Origin: Microcaldota archaeon
GTDB lineage: Archaea; Micrarchaeota; Micrarchaeia; Micrarchaeales; Micrarchaeaceae
Direction of reading: 5' to 3'
NCBI GenBank assembly: GCA_021836925.1
Contig: JAKBHG010000004.1
Coordinates: 8,254-16,158, forward strand
Length of the DNA stretch: 7,905 nucleotides
In this document: positions 2 to 7,905 of the stretch, in pieces
How positions within the stretch are numbered: the first letter of the stretch is position 1
Layout: each line of letters begins with the position of its first letter
The notes under the pieces: model-generated
Database searches by the model: none
Told to the model about the DNA's origin: nothing
The model's input: the letters and a program-made list of their open reading frames with translations, nothing else
Translations under genes and position numbers: made by a program

Positions 2-406
2 GGAGTCATATTCCGGGCATTCATGCCGACAAGGCACCTGGGAGGGATGCTCATGGCGGTTGCCATAGGATTCTACTTCTTCATGCCTGTGCTCTTCAGC
101 ATAGCGTACTACTACACCAGTACGAGTGCGATCGGCCAGCTCGAAGCAGTCACATCGGCTCTTGGCAGGTACGGCGGCTGCGTTCCAGGAGCCGCTACAT
201 GCTCCACTGCTATACAGAACTCCGTCTCTCCGACATCCCCGCTGGTTGAGTCGATAACCACGGCGAACCACACGCTCTCCGCGTTCTGGCTATCAACCAT
301 CTTCTATCCCGCGCTGATAAGCGCCATGACCTACGCGTTCATAATCCAGATTGCGGAGCTTATCGGCGGAATGGCCAAGACGTCAGCGAAGTTCAGGAGC
401 ATCTGA
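2..406 (+). CDS. C-terminal part of a polytopic membrane protein, possible VirB6/CedA-like channel subunit (5' end outside window)
   Basis: The frame is open from base 2 and ends with TGA at 404-406, giving 134 visible residues; the start lies upstream of the window. An ATG at 23 is in frame but is probably internal, because the frame before it also reads as protein. Two strongly hydrophobic segments are visible. The first begins just after the motif PTRHLGG (visible residues about 15-38) and the second lies near the end (about 100-124). A Ser/Thr-rich loop of about 60 residues between them contains two cysteines in GGCVPGAATC that could form a disulfide if the loop is outside the cell. The protein ends in a short basic tail. 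I do not recognise the family directly. Its place next to a VirB4-type ATPase operon makes a VirB6/TrbL/CedA-like transfer-channel role plausible, but that is inference. It converges on the 833-aa gene with only 22 bp between the stop codons. Confidence 0.8.
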   Translation, partial: GVIFRAFMPTRHLGGMLMAVAIGFYFFMPVLFSIAYYYTSTSAIGQLEAVTSALGRYGGCVPGAATCSTAIQNSVSPTSPLVESITTANHTLSAFWLSTIFYPALISAMTYAFIIQIAELIGGMAKTSAKFRSI

Positions 407-428: not shown

Positions 429-2930
429 CTACATCCCGCGATCATGGCAGCTGCAGTAGCACGCCCGCGCCAGCCTCCTTTTGAGAATGGAGGGCAGGAA
501 CTTTGCTCCCTTCCCTCTTCGCTGCTGCTTTCCGATGCCGTATAATGCGTTGGCAAGCTGGATGCTTGGAAGGGGTGCTTGAGCAAACTGCCGCACGGCG
601 ATCTGCGGGAGCATTATTTTCTCGACCTGCGCAACTGTCCGGTCCTCCATGCGTTCCGGCGATGCGTCTGCCGGGAGGAAGACGGCACGAGGCAATTGCC
701 TGATGCCTGTCCCGACGGTCTTGCTGCTTTCTGAACCGCGCAACTCGATCTTCAGCCTATCAGTTGCGATGCCGGTTGTCCCGGAGAGGGCAATCTCCGC
801 GAAGCTCTCATCCTTCACTACGGCCATCCGGATTCTGTGCGTCTCATCAATCGGGGTGTGGATGAATATCGAATTGCCATTTACCTCGCGCAGCTCGTCG
901 AGAATAATGCGGCTTAGTCCTAGCTTTGTTGCTGCATGGCCGGATGCGTAACCTCCCTGCGCGCCAAGCGCCGCTATGACTTCCTGCCTCGATCGCCCTG
1001 CAGATGCGGCACCGAGCGTGGCATCCCTGATCATGGCCATGCTCCTTGTTGTTGTAGTTGGGACGGTGAACCGTCCGGGCGCCGGCATGACATCCATTGG
1101 CGATGCGGACTCGGCTGATGCTGCCGGTGCAAGGATTCCGCGGCGATCAAGGTTCTCCTCGTTTAGTGGCAGGGAAGCCGTGGCATGGCTGCTTGTGGTG
1201 CTCTTGCATCCAGCGGATTTCTTGACCGTGACGATCTCAATCCGCGCCTGCGGTGCCTGCACAATGCCGTGCTGCCTCTGTTGCGGCAACATAAAAACGG
1301 CCCCGTTGCCTGCCTGCACAAACCAGACATTGGCGTCGGCGGCCTGGGTGTTTAACGCCCGAAGCCTTGCCCGGGTCCTGCCGCTTTCCTCGGATGCACC
1401 CGGTGCGTATGTCTGTGTCCCTGCCGAATGGAACAGAAGCAGTGCAGCATTCTTCTCATAGTCAAAGCTGCCTATATCCTGCGCGGCGGCGGGGATTTCA
1501 ACCGGAATGCTCACGCCCTGCACCCCTGCAGCTTTGTCCGCGCTGTTCATGACTGCCATGTTTGGCAGCGCTGCGGCATGCGAAGCGCCTACCAGCATCG
1601 GATTGCCGAGTGAGCTTGAGAGAAAGGAGATTATCTCCCCTGCTGTGGCCCCTCTCCCGTAAATCTTCGATATTCCGTCGGATATGGTGCCATGGCCAAG
1701 GGCTGAGATCCCTATTCGTTCCAGTCTCTTGGCGCTCATCTGGTCTATCGAGCCCCCTGCAAACGAGACCACGCTGCCCAGCATCTTCACCACCGCCTTC
1801 TGCGCTTCGACGACAACGGACATGTTTCCCACCATCTGGGTGTACACGTCGGCCACGAGCCCGTAGCCAATGGCATGCACCTTCCTCTCCGCCGCAACCC
1901 TTGCTATCTCGAGATGGTCGGTCACTCCGCTCAGCAGCGTCACGTTGAATCCGGACTGCTTTATCTCAATGGCTTTTAGCACCAGCTCGAAGTTGTGTCC
2001 GTCCCCGAGATCCACGAGGAGAACCGACTTCCCGCCACCGATGTCGCTCTTCCTTGCCGCATCGAGGAGGTGCGCGCGGTCAAGCAGGTGGCCTATGAGC
2101 CTCCTCTCTGCGGTCTGCGCGTCAAGCCGCGAGAGTTCGCCGATGAATGGGCCGTCGATGCCACCTACGCCAAGCCCCATGGCGTACGAGAGCCACACCG
2201 CAAGGTTCGGGCTCCTGTTTATAAGACTCAACATCTCCGTTCCGATAGCACTTCCTGACACGAGCGCATCGAGGCCGTTAGACCTTGCGATTCCATAGAG
2301 CCACATGCTCGCCGGCTCCATGCCGAGCGAGTTTAGGAACCTGAGGCTCTCTCCGCTCAGCTTCACGGATTCATTCATGATTCTCCCAGTCGAGGCTACT
2401 GCCAGAGCTTGCGTCAAGTTCTTCGTGATGCTAACCACGTAGAGCAGTGAGCTGGCGTTAAGTTCATTGAGCCCGCCAAGCCTCTCAAGAAAGCCCTGGT
2501 CTGTGAGTGCGGCGAGGCTTCCACCGATGCCCCTTGTCTCATGCACCGCTACGATGAGCTCCGCAGCGGTTGTCGGCCTTGACTGTCCCATTCCCTGTAT
2601 CTGGTCAAGAAGCCTTTCTACGTTAAGGTTCTGCCCTGCCGCAGCATCCCGGAGCGCGAATTCACTGAACGTCGCGACAAAGTCCCCGCAGAGCGAGCCG
2701 AGCGCCTGTCCGAATCCGTCATCGCTCCTCCACTTCAACTTCGACTGATAGCAGTAGCAGAGTGAGAGAAGGTCCCTGAACTCGCCGATCTCATTGTGTG
2801 CCTCTGCCTTGGATATCTCCTTGCCCTTCCAATCCGAGATCCTTGCGCCGAAGTCATCGACCCTCCGGCTGAGCTCCTCTAAGGAGATCTCCCTTGACAC
2901 TCTCTGCGTCTGAACGGCCCCAGGCGGCAT
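429..2930 (-). CDS. 833-aa protein with degenerate B12-binding-like domain and a Fis-type HTH-like segment, function unknown
   Basis: The start is the ATG at 2928-2930. A TAG codon directly precedes it in frame, so no longer start exists. No Shine-Dalgarno site is seen. Residues 1-290 look mostly helical. Residues 300-425 read like the B12-binding Rossmann domain of methylmalonyl-CoA mutase: first strand KSVLLVDL, then DGH (310-312, H312 in the cobalt-ligand position), a strand ending VHAIGYGL (351-358), FAGG (390-393) and LGHGT (411-415). The family motif DxHxxG is altered (E315 replaces the last Gly), and the Ser of SxL is Gly. Residues about 575-640 are a Ser/Ala/Thr/Pro-rich linker. Residues 646-684 resemble a Fis-type helix-turn-helix (QGGY, HAATKLGLSR). 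The tail is basic and ends in a CYCSCH cluster. Arginine codons are mostly AGR up to about residue 500 and mostly CGN after it. The gene is divergent from the 3196 operon. It could be a cobalamin- or nucleotide-sensing regulator, or a protein whose B12 fold no longer binds cofactor. The ORF itself is secure; the function is not. Confidence 0.85.
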   Translation of the reverse strand: MPPGAVQTQRVSREISLEELSRRVDDFGARISDWKGKEISKAEAHNEIGEFRDLLSLCYCYQSKLKWRSDDGFGQALGSLCGDFVATFSEFALRDAAAGQNLNVERLLDQIQGMGQSRPTTAAELIVAVHETRGIGGSLAALTDQGFLERLGGLNELNASSLLYVVSITKNLTQALAVASTGRIMNESVKLSGESLRFLNSLGMEPASMWLYGIARSNGLDALVSGSAIGTEMLSLINRSPNLAVWLSYAMGLGVGGIDGPFIGELSRLDAQTAERRLIGHLLDRAHLLDAARKSDIGGGKSVLLVDLGDGHNFELVLKAIEIKQSGFNVTLLSGVTDHLEIARVAAERKVHAIGYGLVADVYTQMVGNMSVVVEAQKAVVKMLGSVVSFAGGSIDQMSAKRLERIGISALGHGTISDGISKIYGRGATAGEIISFLSSSLGNPMLVGASHAAALPNMAVMNSADKAAGVQGVSIPVEIPAAAQDIGSFDYEKNAALLLFHSAGTQTYAPGASEESGRTRARLRALNTQAADANVWFVQAGNGAVFMLPQQRQHGIVQAPQARIEIVTVKKSAGCKSTTSSHATASLPLNEENLDRRGILAPAASAESASPMDVMPAPGRFTVPTTTTRSMAMIRDATLGAASAGRSRQEVIAALGAQGGYASGHAATKLGLSRIILDELREVNGNSIFIHTPIDETHRIRMAVVKDESFAEIALSGTTGIATDRLKIELRGSESSKTVGTGIRQLPRAVFLPADASPERMEDRTVAQVEKIMLPQIAVRQFAQAPLPSIQLANALYGIGKQQRRGKGAKFLPSILKRRLARACYCSCHDRGM

Positions 2931-3195: not shown

Positions 3196-4053
3196 TTGGC
3201 CTTGGAATTCCGCATGTTGCTCTTCATACTCCTGCTCGCAGGATCTCTCGCGCTCGCCCTCGTTGCGGCGTCGATTCCCCAGTATTTCATAATCCAGTTC
3301 ATACTTGGCCTAATTGCGATTGCGCTTGACATACTTGCGATGTCAACGAGATACTACACCTACCTCTTCGAGCCATTCTACAAGATGAAGAACAAGGTGG
3401 CCATAATAGACAACGGCGAGCCGTACGCGCTATCGCCTTCCGGAAACGCAATAATGAAGAGGGAGAAGGACCTGATCTACGCCACGGTATTCGTGAAGAT
3501 ACCTGTATACACGTCTGCAACCGAGATGGAGGACGAGGCGAAGAGGGACTTTGCGCAGACGTTCGGGAGGATGCTCTCCATAATCAAGGAGCCGTTCAGG
3601 CTGACCACGCAGCTGTACGTGCTCAACAAGGACGAGTACGCGGAGAAGATACGCAGCAAGCTTAACGAGGCACAGGAGAAGTACAGCCAGCTCGTGAGCA
3701 AGGAAGCTGCGCAGGATGCCACATCGAAGAAGGCCGTGAGCCCTGAGGCTGAGAGGATCAGGGGAGAGACCACGATGTGGAGGAACATGCTCGACAGCGT
3801 GAACAGGGCGAGGTCGCACTCACTGGTCTCCTATGCCGCGATCACCACTGTGGGGAACAGTGAAGAGGAGGCCGTCAACCTTGCACTCCTGAAGGGCGAC
3901 GAGCTCGCTACCGGCATAAGCACCACGCTTGGAATATCCGCATCGGTGGCCAGCGGCAGGGAGATACTTTACCTGATAGAGCCGGATTACATGATACCTG
4001 TGGCCAATCTCAGCCAGCAGATAAACGAGAGGGGAGCCGAGGCAGTCGTCTGA
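3196..4053 (+). CDS. Membrane-anchored protein: VirB3-like two-helix anchor plus VirB4 N-terminal-like domain (paralogue 1)
   Basis: Two membrane segments (about residues 7-27 and 31-50) are followed by a soluble alpha/beta domain (about 60-285) with a charged, coil-like stretch at 145-200. It resembles the next gene along its length: two helices, then LF.PF, then a YAT strand (LIYATVF, 93-99), and finally GREILYLIEPDYMIP (254-268), which matches 7 of 15 positions in the neighbour. The order of strands and helices recalls the region in front of the motor in VirB4/TrsE ATPases, and the two-helix anchor recalls VirB3/PrgI proteins, which are fused to VirB4 in some systems (known of those families). 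A detached motor-docking subunit is therefore inferred. I used the TTG at 3196 because it leaves a short hydrophilic N-terminus like the paralogue's; the ATG at 3214, directly before the first helix, is equally possible. First gene of the operon. Confidence 0.8.
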   Translation: MALEFRMLLFILLLAGSLALALVAASIPQYFIIQFILGLIAIALDILAMSTRYYTYLFEPFYKMKNKVAIIDNGEPYALSPSGNAIMKREKDLIYATVFVKIPVYTSATEMEDEAKRDFAQTFGRMLSIIKEPFRLTTQLYVLNKDEYAEKIRSKLNEAQEKYSQLVSKEAAQDATSKKAVSPEAERIRGETTMWRNMLDSVNRARSHSLVSYAAITTVGNSEEEAVNLALLKGDELATGISTTLGISASVASGREILYLIEPDYMIPVANLSQQINERGAEAVV

Positions 4054-4056
4054 GGG
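4052..4056 (+). promoter_or_regulatory. Shine-Dalgarno site for the 273-aa gene
   Basis: GAGGG overlaps the TGA stop of the upstream gene and sits 6 nt before the ATG at 4063. It is the clearest ribosome binding site in the window and points to coupled translation of the two paralogues. Confidence 0.6.
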
Positions 4057-4062
4057 TTTTGC

Positions 4063-4884
4063 ATGGACCAGGAAGGAATAATGTATCTCGCGGCAACTGC
4101 TCTGATAGCTGTGCTGATCATAATAACCGGCTCGGGATACGGTCCGCTCGGCATGGTGATGGTGATACTCGGGGCGCTGACCCTTGTAATCATAATAATG
4201 CTTAACTACGTCGACTTCGTCCTCTTCCCATTCTTCACCAAGACCCTCGGCATAACGATGGTTCCTGCTAACAGGTACACGATACCGAAGACCCAGGACT
4301 CGGTGATAAAGCTCGTCAACGGCATATACTACGCTACGGGATACCTCACCGGAAACCTCTACGGCTACGTCTTCCAGTCGCAGCAGGAGCAGCCGGATGA
4401 GGCCGCAATGGCGCTTGCGATGGACAAGTGGGAGAGGGTCGTGATGAATGTGAACTTCCCGTTCAAGTTCAACGTTATAACGATGTCGGAGAACGTGCAG
4501 AAGTACAGGGACGACCTCGACGGGCAGAGGGGATACCTGCAGTTCCAGATCTCGAGGGAGATGCAGAGCACGAATCCGAACCAGATGACGATAGAGGGCC
4601 TGCAGAGGCAGATGGCTTTGGTCCAGGCGAAGATGGACAGGGTAGCTACAGGAGAGCGGCCGATGAACACGCTGATATACATAGAGTCCACTGCCGTCGG
4701 GGTCAGCGAGAGGGAGGCGCAGGACGCGCTCACGAACCAGCTCAGCCAGCTCCAGACGGTCTTCAATGCGTTCGACCTCAACATAATGAGGATAACGGGA
4801 AGGGAGGTCTACCACCTCAGCCAGATGAACTACAGGATACCCGGCGAGCAGGAGCTGAGGAAGATCTTCCAGGAGCAGAAGTAG
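4063..4884 (+). CDS. Membrane-anchored protein: VirB3-like two-helix anchor plus VirB4 N-terminal-like domain (paralogue 2)
   Basis: This 273-aa protein starts 9 nt after the previous stop, with GAGGG at good spacing before its ATG. Membrane segments lie at about 7-22 and 29-52, followed by LFPFF. The soluble part has RYTIPKTQDSVIKL (71-84), a YYATGYL strand (89-95), a stretch around PFKFNVIT (133-140), and a helix (about 177-197) leading to TLIYIESTAVG (203-213) and a second helix (about 214-236). This last pattern, a helix with a basic or Gly turn, a beta strand and a long helix, is what I expect in the N-terminal region of VirB4/TrsE proteins. It ends with GREVYHLSQMNYRIP (246-260), shared with paralogue 1, and a short charged tail. 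It has no ATPase motif. The likely role is a membrane-bound partner of the ATPase encoded next, possibly as a heteromer with paralogue 1. The domain assignment is by eye and needs a profile or structure search. Confidence 0.85.
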   Translation: MDQEGIMYLAATALIAVLIIITGSGYGPLGMVMVILGALTLVIIIMLNYVDFVLFPFFTKTLGITMVPANRYTIPKTQDSVIKLVNGIYYATGYLTGNLYGYVFQSQQEQPDEAAMALAMDKWERVVMNVNFPFKFNVITMSENVQKYRDDLDGQRGYLQFQISREMQSTNPNQMTIEGLQRQMALVQAKMDRVATGERPMNTLIYIESTAVGVSEREAQDALTNQLSQLQTVFNAFDLNIMRITGREVYHLSQMNYRIPGEQELRKIFQEQK

Positions 4885-4886
4885 TG

Positions 4887-4894
4887 TTTTATAG
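4887..4894 (+). promoter_or_regulatory. Possible internal box A for a leaderless ATPase mRNA
   Basis: TTTTATAG lies in the 30-bp gap before the ATPase gene, with its centre about 24 nt upstream of the ATG at 4915. That is the box A to start-site distance, so a transcript beginning at or next to the ATG is possible. No convincing Shine-Dalgarno site precedes this ATG, which fits. It could also be chance AT-richness in the gap. Confidence 0.4.
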
Positions 4895-4914
4895 ATTCAA
4901 TGGGATAGATTGTC

Positions 4915-6420
4915 ATGTCGCTTGTAAGGATCCAGAACATAATGGGAAACGAGCTCTCGAAGAGGGTCTTCCTCAGCAGGCCGCCCGAGCCTCCGCACGA
5001 GTACCTCCTTAATGATCCTACGGACTCGATCTTCATAGGAACCACGAAGGTCTTCGGGGTCCCTTTCACGTGGACATTCGCGACGCTCACGAATCCGCAC
5101 CTTGCGGTGGTGGGAATCACCGGGGCCGGAAAGTCGTTCTTCGTAAAGACATTCCTACTCAGGGCTAGCTACATCTGGAACACCAACGCGATAATCATAG
5201 ACTGGGCCGGGGAGTACAAGGGCTGGGTCAAGCAGAGCGGAGGCATCGTGATCTCGCTCTCGAAGGGAGACTACATAAACATAATGGACCTCTCGGGGAT
5301 GAAGCCGATAGACAGGGTCAAGCAGATCATGAACTCACTCGACATACTCACCGACATCGTCGACTATCCCGAGCAGAGGAGGCTTACAGCGGAGGGCATA
5401 GAGCAGGCGTACGTGAATGCGGGATTCTCGCTCTCACAGGTTCCAGAGCCAAACGCCGATGCCCCGACCCTGAAGGAGGTAACGACGCTTCTCGAGGAGA
5501 AGCTCCAGGAGGGTTCGTACGAGTACCCCGCCGAGCTGGAGAATGCTCTCTACAGGCTCAGGCAGTTCACGAGGGAGGGAGAGGACTACTTCGCCAAGAA
5601 GTCGACGATAGACATAGCGAGGCTCGCGTCGTCGGGGCTCGTGGCTCTCGATCTGTCGGGGCTTCCTGACGAGAGGTTCAGGGCACTCGCGGCGATGTTC
5701 ATACTCCAGACATTGAAGGAGAAGATGCGCGCCGAGGGCTGGTCGAGCAGCAAGGGGCTCAAGGCGATAGTGGTTCTGGACGAGGCCTGGAAGGTCGCAA
5801 GCGACGACAGGAGCGATGCCATAACCATAGTGAGGGAGGGAAGGAAGTACCAGTTCGGGCTGATAGTTGCGTCGCAGAATCCTACCGACGTCAACGAGGC
5901 GATCTTCTCAAACGTGGGGACAACGGTGATGCTTAGGATAAGGTTCGAGAAGTTCATGAACTACCTTCAGGGATCGCTCAACTTCTCAAACTTCATAAGG
6001 GGGGAGATAGGGAAGTTCGGGGTTGGCCAGGCCGCGTTCGACATGTCATTTCACTCCGCTGTTCAGTTCCCCGACGTCTTTCTCCTGGACAGGATAGTGG
6101 GCGAGGAGCCTCTCGACGTGTACACGATAAGCATTGCCGAGATACTCACCCCGAGCGAGCTGGATGACCAGAGCATCCAGAAGGAATACTATCTTGAGAA
6201 GATAGACCTCAACTCCAAGCTGATAGAGGCCGGAATAGGTCCGGAGATCATCGCAGCGATCTTCAGGGAGCTTGACAAGAAGGAGAGGATAGCTGACAGA
6301 AGGGACATGGTCAGAATAATGATGGCCAGGGGCATCAACAGGGACGTGATAGTCGGGTTCCTGAGGAGCATAAAGGTGGTCGATACGCTGATAACAAGGA
6401 TATTCTCGTACATAGGCTGA
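4915..6420 (+). CDS. VirB4/HerA-type P-loop ATPase of a type IV secretion-like system
   Basis: This is a RecA-fold motor of the FtsK/HerA/VirB4 group, expected to power DNA or protein transfer at the membrane. Walker A is GITGAGKS (67-74), after NPHLAVV, as in VirB4 proteins. A second family signature, IIIDWAGEY (93-101), follows. Walker B is AIVVLDEAW (284-292), with D289 and E290 as the expected metal and catalytic residues. REGRKYQFGLIVASQNP (307-323) supplies the typical basic helix and sensor Gln. Residues 155-275 form the helical insert usual between the motifs. At 501 aa it lacks the roughly 200-300-residue N-terminal domain of standard VirB4; the two preceding genes may encode its equivalent. 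The C-terminus (about 430-501) carries two helical hairpin repeats (435-453 and 468-497), the second of which recurs in the next gene. Arginine codons are AGG in 27 of 30 cases by hand count. It has no membrane segment. CedB of Crenarchaeota is a plausible functional analogue; VirB4-class assignment is firm, substrate unknown. Confidence 0.93.
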   Translation: MSLVRIQNIMGNELSKRVFLSRPPEPPHEYLLNDPTDSIFIGTTKVFGVPFTWTFATLTNPHLAVVGITGAGKSFFVKTFLLRASYIWNTNAIIIDWAGEYKGWVKQSGGIVISLSKGDYINIMDLSGMKPIDRVKQIMNSLDILTDIVDYPEQRRLTAEGIEQAYVNAGFSLSQVPEPNADAPTLKEVTTLLEEKLQEGSYEYPAELENALYRLRQFTREGEDYFAKKSTIDIARLASSGLVALDLSGLPDERFRALAAMFILQTLKEKMRAEGWSSSKGLKAIVVLDEAWKVASDDRSDAITIVREGRKYQFGLIVASQNPTDVNEAIFSNVGTTVMLRIRFEKFMNYLQGSLNFSNFIRGEIGKFGVGQAAFDMSFHSAVQFPDVFLLDRIVGEEPLDVYTISIAEILTPSELDDQSIQKEYYLEKIDLNSKLIEAGIGPEIIAAIFRELDKKERIADRRDMVRIMMARGINRDVIVGFLRSIKVVDTLITRIFSYIG

Positions 6421-6425
6421 GACCG

Positions 6426-6722
6426 ATGGCCAACACATTCATCGTAAATCGGATAAAGCTCGAGAGGATACTCTCAGGGTTCAAGGTCAGCACGAAGAAC
6501 ATAAACGAGCTGCTCAACCAGATAAACAAGACGCACAGGCACGTCAACGCCCTGGCGTTCGTGGGCATGCTGCACAAGTATGGCCTCAAGCAGGAGGATG
6601 TATCCAACATACTCAGGAGGCTGGGCTTCGACGAAGTCACGATAACAGAGATGTTCAACATGATCGACGAGGAGAGGATAAACCAGACGTACGGGAAGAT
6701 AGTTGAGCTTTGGGTTGATTGA
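6426..6722 (+). CDS. Small helical protein sharing a repeat with the ATPase C-terminus, possible motor adaptor
   Basis: This 98-aa protein starts 5 nt after the ATPase stop, so the two are almost certainly co-transcribed and translated together. It is predicted wholly alpha-helical, with no membrane segment and no cysteine. Residues 48-77 (from MLHKYGLKQEDV to ITEMF) align without gaps to ATPase residues 468-497: 6 identities in 30 (G, L, R, I, T, F) plus many conservative changes on the hydrophobic positions. The gene uses the same AGG/ATA-rich codons as its neighbours. I do not recognise a named family. The shared hairpin and the tight coupling suggest a subunit that packs on, or evolved from, the C-terminus of the motor. 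That role is inference. Confidence 0.8.
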   Translation: MANTFIVNRIKLERILSGFKVSTKNINELLNQINKTHRHVNALAFVGMLHKYGLKQEDVSNILRRLGFDEVTITEMFNMIDEERINQTYGKIVELWVD

Positions 6723-6724
6723 GA

Positions 6725-7156
6725 ATGGCAGCGAAGAGCACGATGCGAAGGGCTAAGGCCGCGAGAGCGGAGACGAGAGGCGAGAGGGTCGTCTGCATAA
6801 TATGCGGGCATGAGAAGCCGGGCATAAGGATAAAGGAGGACAACGTCATAAGGTCGGTCAAGTGGATAAAGAGGAACGTGACCAGGAGCGAGAAGAACAA
6901 CACGCTCGTTGTATGCAGGGAGTGCTACCCGAAGTACACAAAGGACAGGGGCAAGTACACATCCAGGCAGGTCCTCTATGTGGCGCTGGGGATCGTCTTC
7001 GCAATATTCACGATAGTCCTGAATCCGGCGGCGGTTACGGTGCTGATGTCGATCGCGGTTATAGCGCTCTTCTATCTTCTCTCGCTGCTTAACTATGTGC
7101 CAGAGCTCGACATCCGCAGGAGGGATGGGGGAGCCGCCGAAGCGAAGGATAGGTAA
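6725..7156 (+). CDS. Membrane-anchored zinc-ribbon protein
   Basis: This 143-aa protein is read from the ATG at 6725, two bases after the previous stop; a TTG at 6719 overlapping that stop would add two residues. A very basic N-terminus (about 1-20, Arg/Lys/Ala) is followed by CIIC (24-27) and, 36 residues later, CREC (64-67). This pair of CxxC knuckles, the first continuing as CGHEKPG, is typical of a structural zinc ribbon. Two membrane segments follow (about 82-98 and 101-122), then a short charged cytoplasmic-type tail. With both tails charged and two helices, the zinc domain and the C-terminus should lie on the same side, probably inside. Last gene of the tight operon. It may anchor or regulate the machine, for example by binding nucleic acid or the ATPase, but no specific family is recognised. 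Confidence 0.82.
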   Translation: MAAKSTMRRAKAARAETRGERVVCIICGHEKPGIRIKEDNVIRSVKWIKRNVTRSEKNNTLVVCRECYPKYTKDRGKYTSRQVLYVALGIVFAIFTIVLNPAAVTVLMSIAVIALFYLLSLLNYVPELDIRRRDGGAAEAKDR

Positions 7157-7186: not shown

Positions 7187-7219
7187 GACGTCTGACAAGA
7201 TAATTGGGGTAATGTGAGC

Positions 7220-7905
7220 ATGGGAGAGGAAGCCGCTGCTGTCGCCACCGTTCCGAAGGTGGAGGAGATCTCGTTCAACGGGACTCTCACCGGCACCCTT
7301 GATGCGCTGAGGCAGAGACTCTCAAAGATCCCTTTCTACTCTACGAAGATCGATGCCGACCAGTTGGTGCTCGCCAGGGTGGAGAGCAGGAACATAAACA
7401 AGAAGCCGTATCTCTTCTACATGATAAAGCTCGGGAAGGACTCTGCGAGCGTCGTCTATTCGGTGCCCCCTGACACGAGCGAGAGGATGCGGAGGGCCTC
7501 GGTGATAAAGGACCTGGTCTCGGTCCTCGCGATAGCCGCAGAGTCGTACACCGTGAGCGAGACCAAGTTCTACGAGTACATCGACTCGGTAATAGACGAC
7601 CTTCTCAAGGGCCTCTCCGACAGCTACAGTGTTCTCTTCAACAAGTACGATGCGCTTCTCGCTGAGTACAGGGAACTCAAGAGGCTGAACCTCGAGCTCA
7701 GCTCCTCGAACAGGAATCTCACGCTCCAGGCCTCGCAGCTTACCGACCAGAACAAGGTCTATGGGGAGGAGCTGAAGACGCTCCAGAAGTACTCGGACAG
7801 CGCCCTGATGGCGATGGCGAGCGACTGGATAGAGGTTCACAACAGCACGATAGACATCGACGAGTTCGCAAAGACGTACGGGATAGGCGCACCGAGAGTT
7901 GAGCA
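7220..7905 (+). CDS. Coiled-coil protein with N-terminal alpha/beta domain and probable winged helix (3' end outside window)
   Basis: The frame is open from the ATG at 7220 to the window end, giving 228 full codons plus two bases; an in-frame GTG at 7214 is an alternative start. Residues 1-15 are an acidic/Ala tail. Residues about 16-110 look like an alpha/beta domain: strand EISFNG, a helix with ALRQRL, strands around QLVLARVES (48-56) and YLFYMIKLG (64-72), then a long helix. Residues about 115-192 are a coiled coil rich in Leu, Glu and Lys with heptad-like spacing. From about 195, ALMAMASDWIEVHNSTIDID and then EFAKTYGIGAPRVE look like the first two helices of a winged-helix domain, cut off by the window end. 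There is no signal peptide or membrane segment. Codon use is the same AGG/ATA type as the operon. Not recognised as a named family; a dimeric DNA- or protein-binding role is inferred. Confidence 0.88.
   Translation, partial: MGEEAAAVATVPKVEEISFNGTLTGTLDALRQRLSKIPFYSTKIDADQLVLARVESRNINKKPYLFYMIKLGKDSASVVYSVPPDTSERMRRASVIKDLVSVLAIAAESYTVSETKFYEYIDSVIDDLLKGLSDSYSVLFNKYDALLAEYRELKRLNLELSSSNRNLTLQASQLTDQNKVYGEELKTLQKYSDSALMAMASDWIEVHNSTIDIDEFAKTYGIGAPRVE

Follow-up and report, generated by a model that had tools for sequence, protein, structure and literature searches.

Where does a VirB4-type motor find its N-terminal domain when its own gene encodes none? This question is raised by a 7,905-nucleotide stretch of a Microcaldota archaeon genome (contig JAKBHG010000004.1, positions 8,254 to 16,158; hereafter the window), in which gene C encodes an ATPase of this type directly downstream of two genes for membrane proteins, A and B. 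The original prediction, made from the letters of the window, was that A and B each represent a fusion of VirB3 and the VirB4 N-terminal domain that was cut away from the motor and is present in two copies. All three open reading frames (ORFs) were confirmed on the + strand at the predicted positions (Table 1). The analysis reported here suggests that these genes probably encode the energy module of a chromosomal machine of Micrarchaeota resembling a type IV secretion system (T4SS), with VirB4 encoded in pieces: A and B as seats for the motor, C as the motor itself and a fourth gene, D, as a copy of the motor's tail. A detached VirB4 N-terminus is already known; what is new here is that the seat, the motor and an additional tail of VirB4 each have their own gene and that the seat is doubled.

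Gene C encodes a bare VirB4/HerA-type motor plus its C-terminal domain. It has the Walker motifs of a VirB4/TraC-type motor and an ASQNP motif at residue 319, as had been predicted, and was matched above cut-off by the Pfam models DUF87 (PF01935, E 3e-14), AAA_10 (PF12846, E 3.6e-14) and TraG P-loop (PF19044, E 4.9e-11). When compared with a VirB4 motor profile, C aligned over 346 columns (E 2.3e-27) and the alignment began at the motor domain, with 66 residues ahead of Walker A in the window protein. C therefore lacks the VirB4 N-terminal region on its own chain, as the prediction also held, including the second half of that region (NTD2, the first half being NTD1), which the motors of Firmicutes plasmids keep. 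Among the 53 full-length C proteins of 490-540 amino acids (aa; 53 of 59, the 6 outside this range being excluded), Walker A starts at residue 67-97, the Walker A pattern and DEAW are present in all, and [AS]S[QH]NP is present in 50. C is not a broken gene, since the C frames listed for the phylum measure 436-563 aa and longer relatives are mostly intein-bearing: a search of long proteins only, in which the 7992 candidates with the most shared words were scored, gave 15 relatives of at least 583 aa, 13 with intein domains, one with extra sequence on the C-terminal side and one remote bacterial protein. The 13 (P0160-P0172) carry PF14890 and PF14528, which we take to be intein and homing endonuclease; three are named so by their source.

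The best NCBIfam scores of C all lie under the curated cut-offs: CedD 65.5 bits (NF053655, E 3.7e-18, cut-off 600), CedB 63.2 (NF041017, E 1.8e-17, cut-off 700), TraC-F 60.3, CD1110-VirB4 59.6, VirB4_plasma 55.8 and HerA 50.9 (cut-off 800; a second HerA model gave 42.5 bits, cut-off 970). The VirB4 model TIGR00929 gave 34.6 bits (cut-off 643.1). A search of PDB sequences also returned the VirB4-like motor 4ag5, and in a plasmid collection 91 records matched C, with a traC annotation in 28 of 40 among the matches listed.

The products of A and B are paralogues, each with a membrane anchor and a domain of the VirB4 N-terminal type, and this kinship bears out the predicted presence of two copies. 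When 91 sequences of A, B and deep one-copy proteins were compared with 14 NTD1 sequences by hhalign, a colinear match of 159 columns was obtained (probability 94.5%, E 7.4e-8), whereas 12 reversed controls reached 0.0096 at best and eight other families from the same loci 0.19. The combined family also matched four haloarchaeal seats (E 4.2e-5) and 13 NTD2-region sequences (E 7.7e-4). These are the best of about two dozen hhalign comparisons made against NTD-type alignments and are accompanied by weaker ones. Remote colinear homology to NTD1 in a gene beside virB4 is also what characterizes the TrsD/TraD type. The structure predictions (pLDDT, a per-residue confidence score, 70.5 for A and 77.2 for B) are consistent with the N-domain fold of TrwK, the VirB4 of plasmid R388. 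TrwK/VirB4 was found at Foldseek ranks 1, 2, 3 and 5 for A, with E values of 0.031-0.42 that are not significant; in VIA-align, B agreed well with TrwK/VirB4 and A loosely. Of the structures listed for B, TrwK/VirB4 alone spans the whole soluble domain, and the matches of A and B fall on one common stretch of TrwK. Structure and profiles together thus uphold the claim of two upstream proteins with a VirB4-N-terminal-like domain.

Several results weigh against this assignment. The models are of middling confidence (pTM, a score of overall topology, 0.42 for A and 0.59 for B), the best Foldseek E values for TrwK, 0.031 for A and 0.31 for B, are not significant, rank 1 for B is an unrelated entry, and the root mean square deviation in the VIA-align alignment of A is 8.8 A. 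The profile match depends on the alignment used: against NTD1, alignment A1 gave E 5.5e-5 and 0.0035 with query and template swapped, A2 gave 0.005 and 0.0066, and another NTD1 alignment gave 0.0014 for A1 and 0.0086 for A2. The deep set alone matched NTD1 with E 2.7e-4, and matched the four haloarchaeal seats no better (0.033) than a reversed control (0.023). In addition, structure points to the second half of the TrwK N-domain (TrwK 220-380) whereas profiles point to the first half, NTD1. TrwK 220-380 could be assigned to neither half, as a PDB search with the NTD1 and NTD2 alignments (A4, A5) did not match TrwK. NTD1 and NTD2 share their strand and helix order by reading, although a profile comparison of the two gave no match (E 0.11). 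Neither an hmmsearch of A1 and A2 on PDB sequences nor Pfam scans gave a VirB4. Pfam, NCBIfam and PADLOC gave nothing above cut-off for A and B, the TrsD/TraD model NF041427 did not match either at E up to 1, and PF03135 is absent from the matches of A and B in the window and from the families listed for their relatives (25 of 27 for 39 A-family members, 25 of 34 for 48 B-family members).

The part of the original prediction that fared less well is the VirB3 identity of the anchors. By hydropathy and model, both A and B have two hydrophobic helices in their first 50 or so residues, and so present two membrane helices next to VirB4. PF12666 (PrgI) found no match in A or B of the window or among the matches listed for the 39 A-family and 48 B-family members, and the anchors scored E 0.29 with a PrgI profile, where the reversed control did better (0.0067). 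The VirB3 identity was therefore rejected as unproven, and the anchors are 'VirB3-like' solely in helix number, position and analogy.

The arrangement extends well beyond this genome. A genome scan with C returned 49 loci, 45 of them titled Micrarchaeota, with best-segment identities of 54-93%, and the named protein relatives of C are mostly from Micrarchaeota as well. In 59 sources (the window and 58 loci), two A/B-type genes, here called seat genes, precede C in 44, which indicates that the A-B-C arrangement is more than chance. The 44 include one locus with a 1.9-kb gap (L017) and one with B split into two ORFs (L026), where the B-family gene lies in two overlapping ORFs at 4672-5471. Six sources (L040, L041, L042, L109, L110, L112) have a single seat gene ahead of C, that of L110 sitting at a contig end. 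In L033 the contig end cuts within B, and in L007, L018, L039, L043, L046 and L048 a contig end falls inside C or shortly before its start; in L019 and L027 other genes stand beside C and the C-D block is apart from A-B, a seat gene being found elsewhere in the genome of L019 and none in that of L027. Across 301 genomes of the phylum, the seat family was detected in 254 (E <= 0.001) and C in 250 (E <= 1e-60), with both in 242, seat only in 12, C only in 8 and neither in 39 (Fisher p 2e-30), an association inflated by the many metagenome bins among them, in which incompleteness drops neighbouring genes jointly. PF03135 was found in 2 of the 301 and undercounts conventional VirB4s, one of which, in genome G004, it missed. 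This gene (L051) scored 300.7 bits with the CD1110-VirB4 model, and two further loci (L113 in G099, L114 in G034) hold NTD1/TrsD-like ORFs of 315-358 aa beside long PF03135 frames. The conventional VirB4-type genes of these three loci are possibly mobile elements.

The C-terminal domain of the motor recurs as a free-standing protein, encoded by gene D. A tblastn search with C matched the D region in four loci (L017, L023, L024, L044), and hhalign aligned D with the C-terminal domain of C at E 4.7e-22 (reversed control 0.0052). A separate D ORF, sought within the locus stretches only, occurs in every one of the 44 two-seat sources and in all nine that are cut or rearranged upstream (together 53 of 59), and in none of the six with one seat. 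The two-seat lineage therefore also has a second tail, with no second motor beside it, though the association (44/44 vs 0/6) probably reflects one or two events in the tree and not 50 independent cases.

A tree of 52 proteins, without second-module genes, places A in one clade, B in another and the one-copy genes in a third. Nine genomes were examined for further modules. Four (G006, G015, G081, G089) have two separate pairs, each of one seat gene and one motor; in G020 a second seat and second motor lie 13 kb apart on the same contig; three (G005, G099, G104) have one seat-motor pair, and in G093 a single motor goes with two adjacent seats. A possible origin of A from a second-module seat and of B from a first-module one was tried and not retained. 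A four-group tree joins main-clade A to the second-module genes (96/98), with long branches and A in two places, and approximately unbiased (AU) tests rejected none of five groupings (A+S2 p 0.30, B+S2 0.21, S1+S2 0.39, A+S1 0.21, B+S1 0.29). The trees and AU tests thus do not decide whether A arose in the second pair, nor do they fix the order of events. The one-copy state was likewise dropped as the ancestral one, the root of the tree not being known. An origin of D from a second-module motor is not favoured, as eight first-module-type motors score 58-98 bits with D and five second-module motors 26-58; the D tree, of 87 columns, is unresolved. The suggestion in the original prediction that this locus could show how VirB4 was assembled is therefore not borne out: separate VirB4 N-termini were known in TrsD, and the trees of Micrarchaeota set no order.

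Several close systems are known from bacteria. VirB4 has been called a hallmark of every known T4SS, and TrsD is the VirB4 N-terminus as its own protein, with remote homology to the VirB4 N-terminal portion; TrsD is abundant in Patescibacteria and mostly associated with virB4, and the T4SS of Patescibacteria is reported to be essential for growth on the host (PMC12102498, the parts available). The TrsD/TraD plus TrsE pair of pGO1-type monoderm conjugation and of Patescibacteria is thus similar in having a separate gene for the VirB4 N-terminus, whereas Micrarchaeota differ in a motor without any N-domain and in two anchored seat copies. In Geobacillus and Brevibacillus a PrgI gene, an NTD1 gene of about 320 aa with one hydrophobic start and an NTD2 plus motor protein of about 636 aa were found, and the CD1110-VirB4 profile is split between the last two (positions 2-175 and 183 onward). 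Operons of Paenibacillus, Lysinibacillus and Levilactobacillus have the same order of PrgI, NTD1-type gene and motor. This Firmicutes split differs from that of Micrarchaeota in that the motor keeps NTD2 (in two cases by model), there is one NTD1 gene, and PrgI is separate.

Among archaea, two haloarchaeal plasmids (Haloarcula pNG600 and Halobacterium DL1) have, by reading, a lone two-helix plus NTD1-like gene directly before the motor (L115:1844-2857 and L116:1617-2738; 337 and 373 aa). This is the layout imagined in the original prediction, and it shows that a hairpin fused to NTD1 but detached from the motor exists elsewhere, though in these plasmids in one copy and with a motor chain of 694/735 aa in which Walker A lies behind a long region; in Halomontanus and Halorussus everything is fused (1108/1092 aa). 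CedB and CedD, the best NCBIfam matches of C, share the VirB4 N-region between two partners, with N-domains that superpose on different parts of that of VirB4 and a proposed hexamer of dimers (PMC11868833, the part available). They differ from Micrarchaeota in that each has its own ATPase and N-domain in one chain. TedB/TedA/TedC of Thermoproteales is also an archaeal T4SS derivative, with a VirB4-like ATPase that the available part of PMC9905601 does not describe as split. The ARMAN Mia14 paper, in the part available, deals with type IV pili and with elements that are likely conjugative, which are a different matter from the A-B-C system. No report of such a system in Micrarchaeota was found in searches of open-access papers, most subscription papers lying outside the search.

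TrwK of R388 is a single chain of 823 residues with VirB3 as a separate protein; A and B resemble its N-domain fold and C is homologous to its motor. R388 has a ring complex of six VirB4 dimers. By comparison, A and B would be held in the membrane by their helical hairpins, with their domains facing the cytoplasm, where a ring of C would dock on them, so that A and B would do in trans the job of the VirB4 N-terminal domain and VirB3 in R388. A and B could then supply both N-domains of an R388-type dimer from the membrane, with C as the inner motor ring, and ATP hydrolysis by C would drive transport or pilus building via the multi-helix proteins encoded upstream. With less certainty, A and B may pair like both N-terminal domains of the VirB4 dimer, one seat bearing C and the other belonging to a motor-less partner whose C-terminal domain may be D. 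In its fullest form, which seems unlikely, this would make unlike VirB4 dimers of a B plus C working subunit and an A plus D remnant of a second subunit that has lost its ATPase core. The paired modules of deep relatives fit this idea, as four genomes have two adjacent seat and motor pairs; against its simplest form, D is closer to first-module than to second-module motors. The scores of D lower that form and leave a duplicate of the first module unaffected. If it were true, half of the twelve motors would be replaced here by passive seats, where both dimer halves of R388 are full ATPases, and the outer VirB4s of T4SSs would be scaffold and not motors.

It is possible, though doubtful, that A and B are instead the successive halves NTD1 and NTD2 of one VirB4 N-region, so that one A, one B and one C together take the place of a single VirB4, an arrangement like that proposed for CedB and CedD. 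The Firmicutes plasmids that split an NTD1 gene from an NTD2 plus motor gene (two cases by model, others by reading) would agree with this, as would the absence of NTD2 from C, the different VirB4 parts to which the CedB and CedD N-domains map (PMC11868833, the part available), and the weak match of B to NTD2 (8.4e-4; reversed control 0.072), which A does not have (0.11). However, A and B are nearer to each other and to the one-copy forms than to NTD1 or NTD2, both structures match the same stretch of TrwK, and some lineages have a single seat gene beside C. A reading of A and B as generic adaptors in the membrane, unrelated to VirB4, whose ferredoxin-like fold with a coiled-coil hairpin arose by convergence on a common fold, appears very unlikely. 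The Foldseek values, the lack of Pfam matches and the helical hairpins that dominate the structural rows would fit; against it stand the 159-column colinear match compared with the best control, the whole-domain match of B to TrwK/VirB4, and a gene position that is the same as that of NTD1/TrsD genes ahead of VirB4.

A further alternative takes C for a DNA helicase of the HerA kind or a motor that handles chromosomes, and A and B for membrane adaptors that merely resemble VirB4 in their alpha/beta fold, with no secretion or transfer machine involved. The best PDB sequence match of C is a HerA-domain protein, and C also scores with HerA models (50.9 bits). The CedD and CedB matches are not specific for C, as three other, HerA-looking ATPases of relatives (L050, L053, L058) score best with them as well (59-66 bits), so that the ranking cannot serve as proof. 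A topoisomerase VI B gene is found in 31 loci, and no relaxase, coupling protein or VirB6 was detected among the window genes and the upstream genes of relatives that were tested. Two more points count against a T4SS-like machine: no VirB6 or VirB3 gene was found by profile among those upstream multi-helix genes, and a T4SS-pilin-like gene occurs in just one deep locus, below cut-off. Nevertheless, C scores higher with VirB4-type than with HerA models, the reverse of the three other ATPases, the NTD1 match of A and B has clean controls, and multi-membrane-helix genes stand upstream. A HerA-like motor is therefore considered quite unlikely, and the T4SS-like energy module is the preferred reading.

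That module more probably serves a domesticated system, of the Ced/Ted or Patescibacteria T4SS kind, than plasmid transfer. The operon was found on contigs of up to 727 kb (L038) and 1.18 Mb (L104), and these long contigs, with the topoisomerase VI B neighbour (e.g. L010:11437-13047, - strand; Pfam-tested in L010, by BLAST in other loci), indicate that it is chromosomal in these loci. Micrarchaeota belong to the DPANN archaea and are known for members that live attached to a host, and most of the genomes of this phylum that were examined carry the genes. The module is thus a possible DPANN counterpart to the Patescibacteria T4SS, which would make the question of growth on a host testable in archaea. 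The VirB4 N-terminal domain and outer dimer half are hard to dissect because they lie on a single chain; with seat, motor and tail copy in separate genes, each can be expressed, removed or swapped singly, and the layout lets biologists ask how T4SS-type machines are put together.

Table 1. Features of the 7,905-nucleotide window (columns: feature, position, strand, description and basis)
Gene A	3196-4053	+	TTG start, 285 aa ORF; membrane hairpin and VirB4-N-terminal-domain-like domain; model, paralogue of B
Two-helix membrane anchor of A, predicted (residues 2-49)	3199-3342	+	model helices 2-26, 31-49; hydropathy
Soluble domain of A (about residues 75-268)	3418-3999	+	model
Gene B	4063-4884	+	273 aa ORF; membrane hairpin and VirB4-N-terminal-domain-like domain
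Two-helix membrane anchor of B, predicted (residues 3-48)	4069-4206	+	model helix 3-48; two hydrophobic stretches
Soluble domain of B (about residues 70-257)	4270-4833	+	model
Gene C	4915-6420	+	501 aa; VirB4/HerA-type motor without N-terminal domain; Pfam, NCBIfam, profile
Walker A of C (GITGAGKS, residues 67-74)	5113-5136	+	
Walker B of C (VVLDEAW, residues 286-292)	5770-5790	+	
C-terminal domain of C (about residues 412-500)	6148-6414	+	paralogous to D; tblastn, hhalign
Gene D	6426-6722	+	98 aa; free-standing copy of the C-terminal domain of C
Gene E	6719-7156	+	conserved after D; Cys-rich start and two membrane helices
Gene F	7214-7903, runs off window	+	conserved operon gene, no assigned role
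Gene U (end)	2-406	+	multi-membrane-helix gene; in relatives it closes a row of tandem genes ahead of A
ORF R	429-2930	-	833 aa, lodged between U and A

The + strand of the window reads U (end), A, B, C, D, E and F (start). U matches the C-terminal part of proteins of 365-404 aa in relatives, which have several hydrophobic stretches. When 13 of the upstream multi-helix proteins were searched against the PDB, ABC-transporter matches alone were returned (E 0.008) and were taken as membrane-helix noise. A tblastn search of the 49 related loci with ORF R gave nothing at E <= 1e-3; below cut-off, R has a weak B12-binding-like match, to a Pfam model at E 0.0064 and to one for the C-terminal part of methylmalonyl-CoA mutase at 8.8e-4. 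In L002 a different ORF of 323 aa on the - strand occupies its place.

The membrane helices of E are also found in relatives, and its Pfam zinc-ribbon and PrgI matches are below cut-off only. E was considered as the missing PrgI and not accepted, the match (E 5.3e-4) covering only 30 membrane-helix columns. F is conserved and had no Pfam or NCBIfam family above cut-off. Near the single-seat operon of L109 lies a three-helix protein (5004-5420) that matches T4SS_pilin (PF18895) at E 0.0013, below cut-off; a three-helix protein near that of L040 (324-725) has no such match. Two of the proteins of 770-880 aa that follow F were tested and had no Pfam family above cut-off. These proteins are conserved after F in L002, L004, L010 and L045 (about 9.1-11.6 kb) and in L040, L042 and L109, and have hydrophobic stretches near the start and at about residue 520-630.

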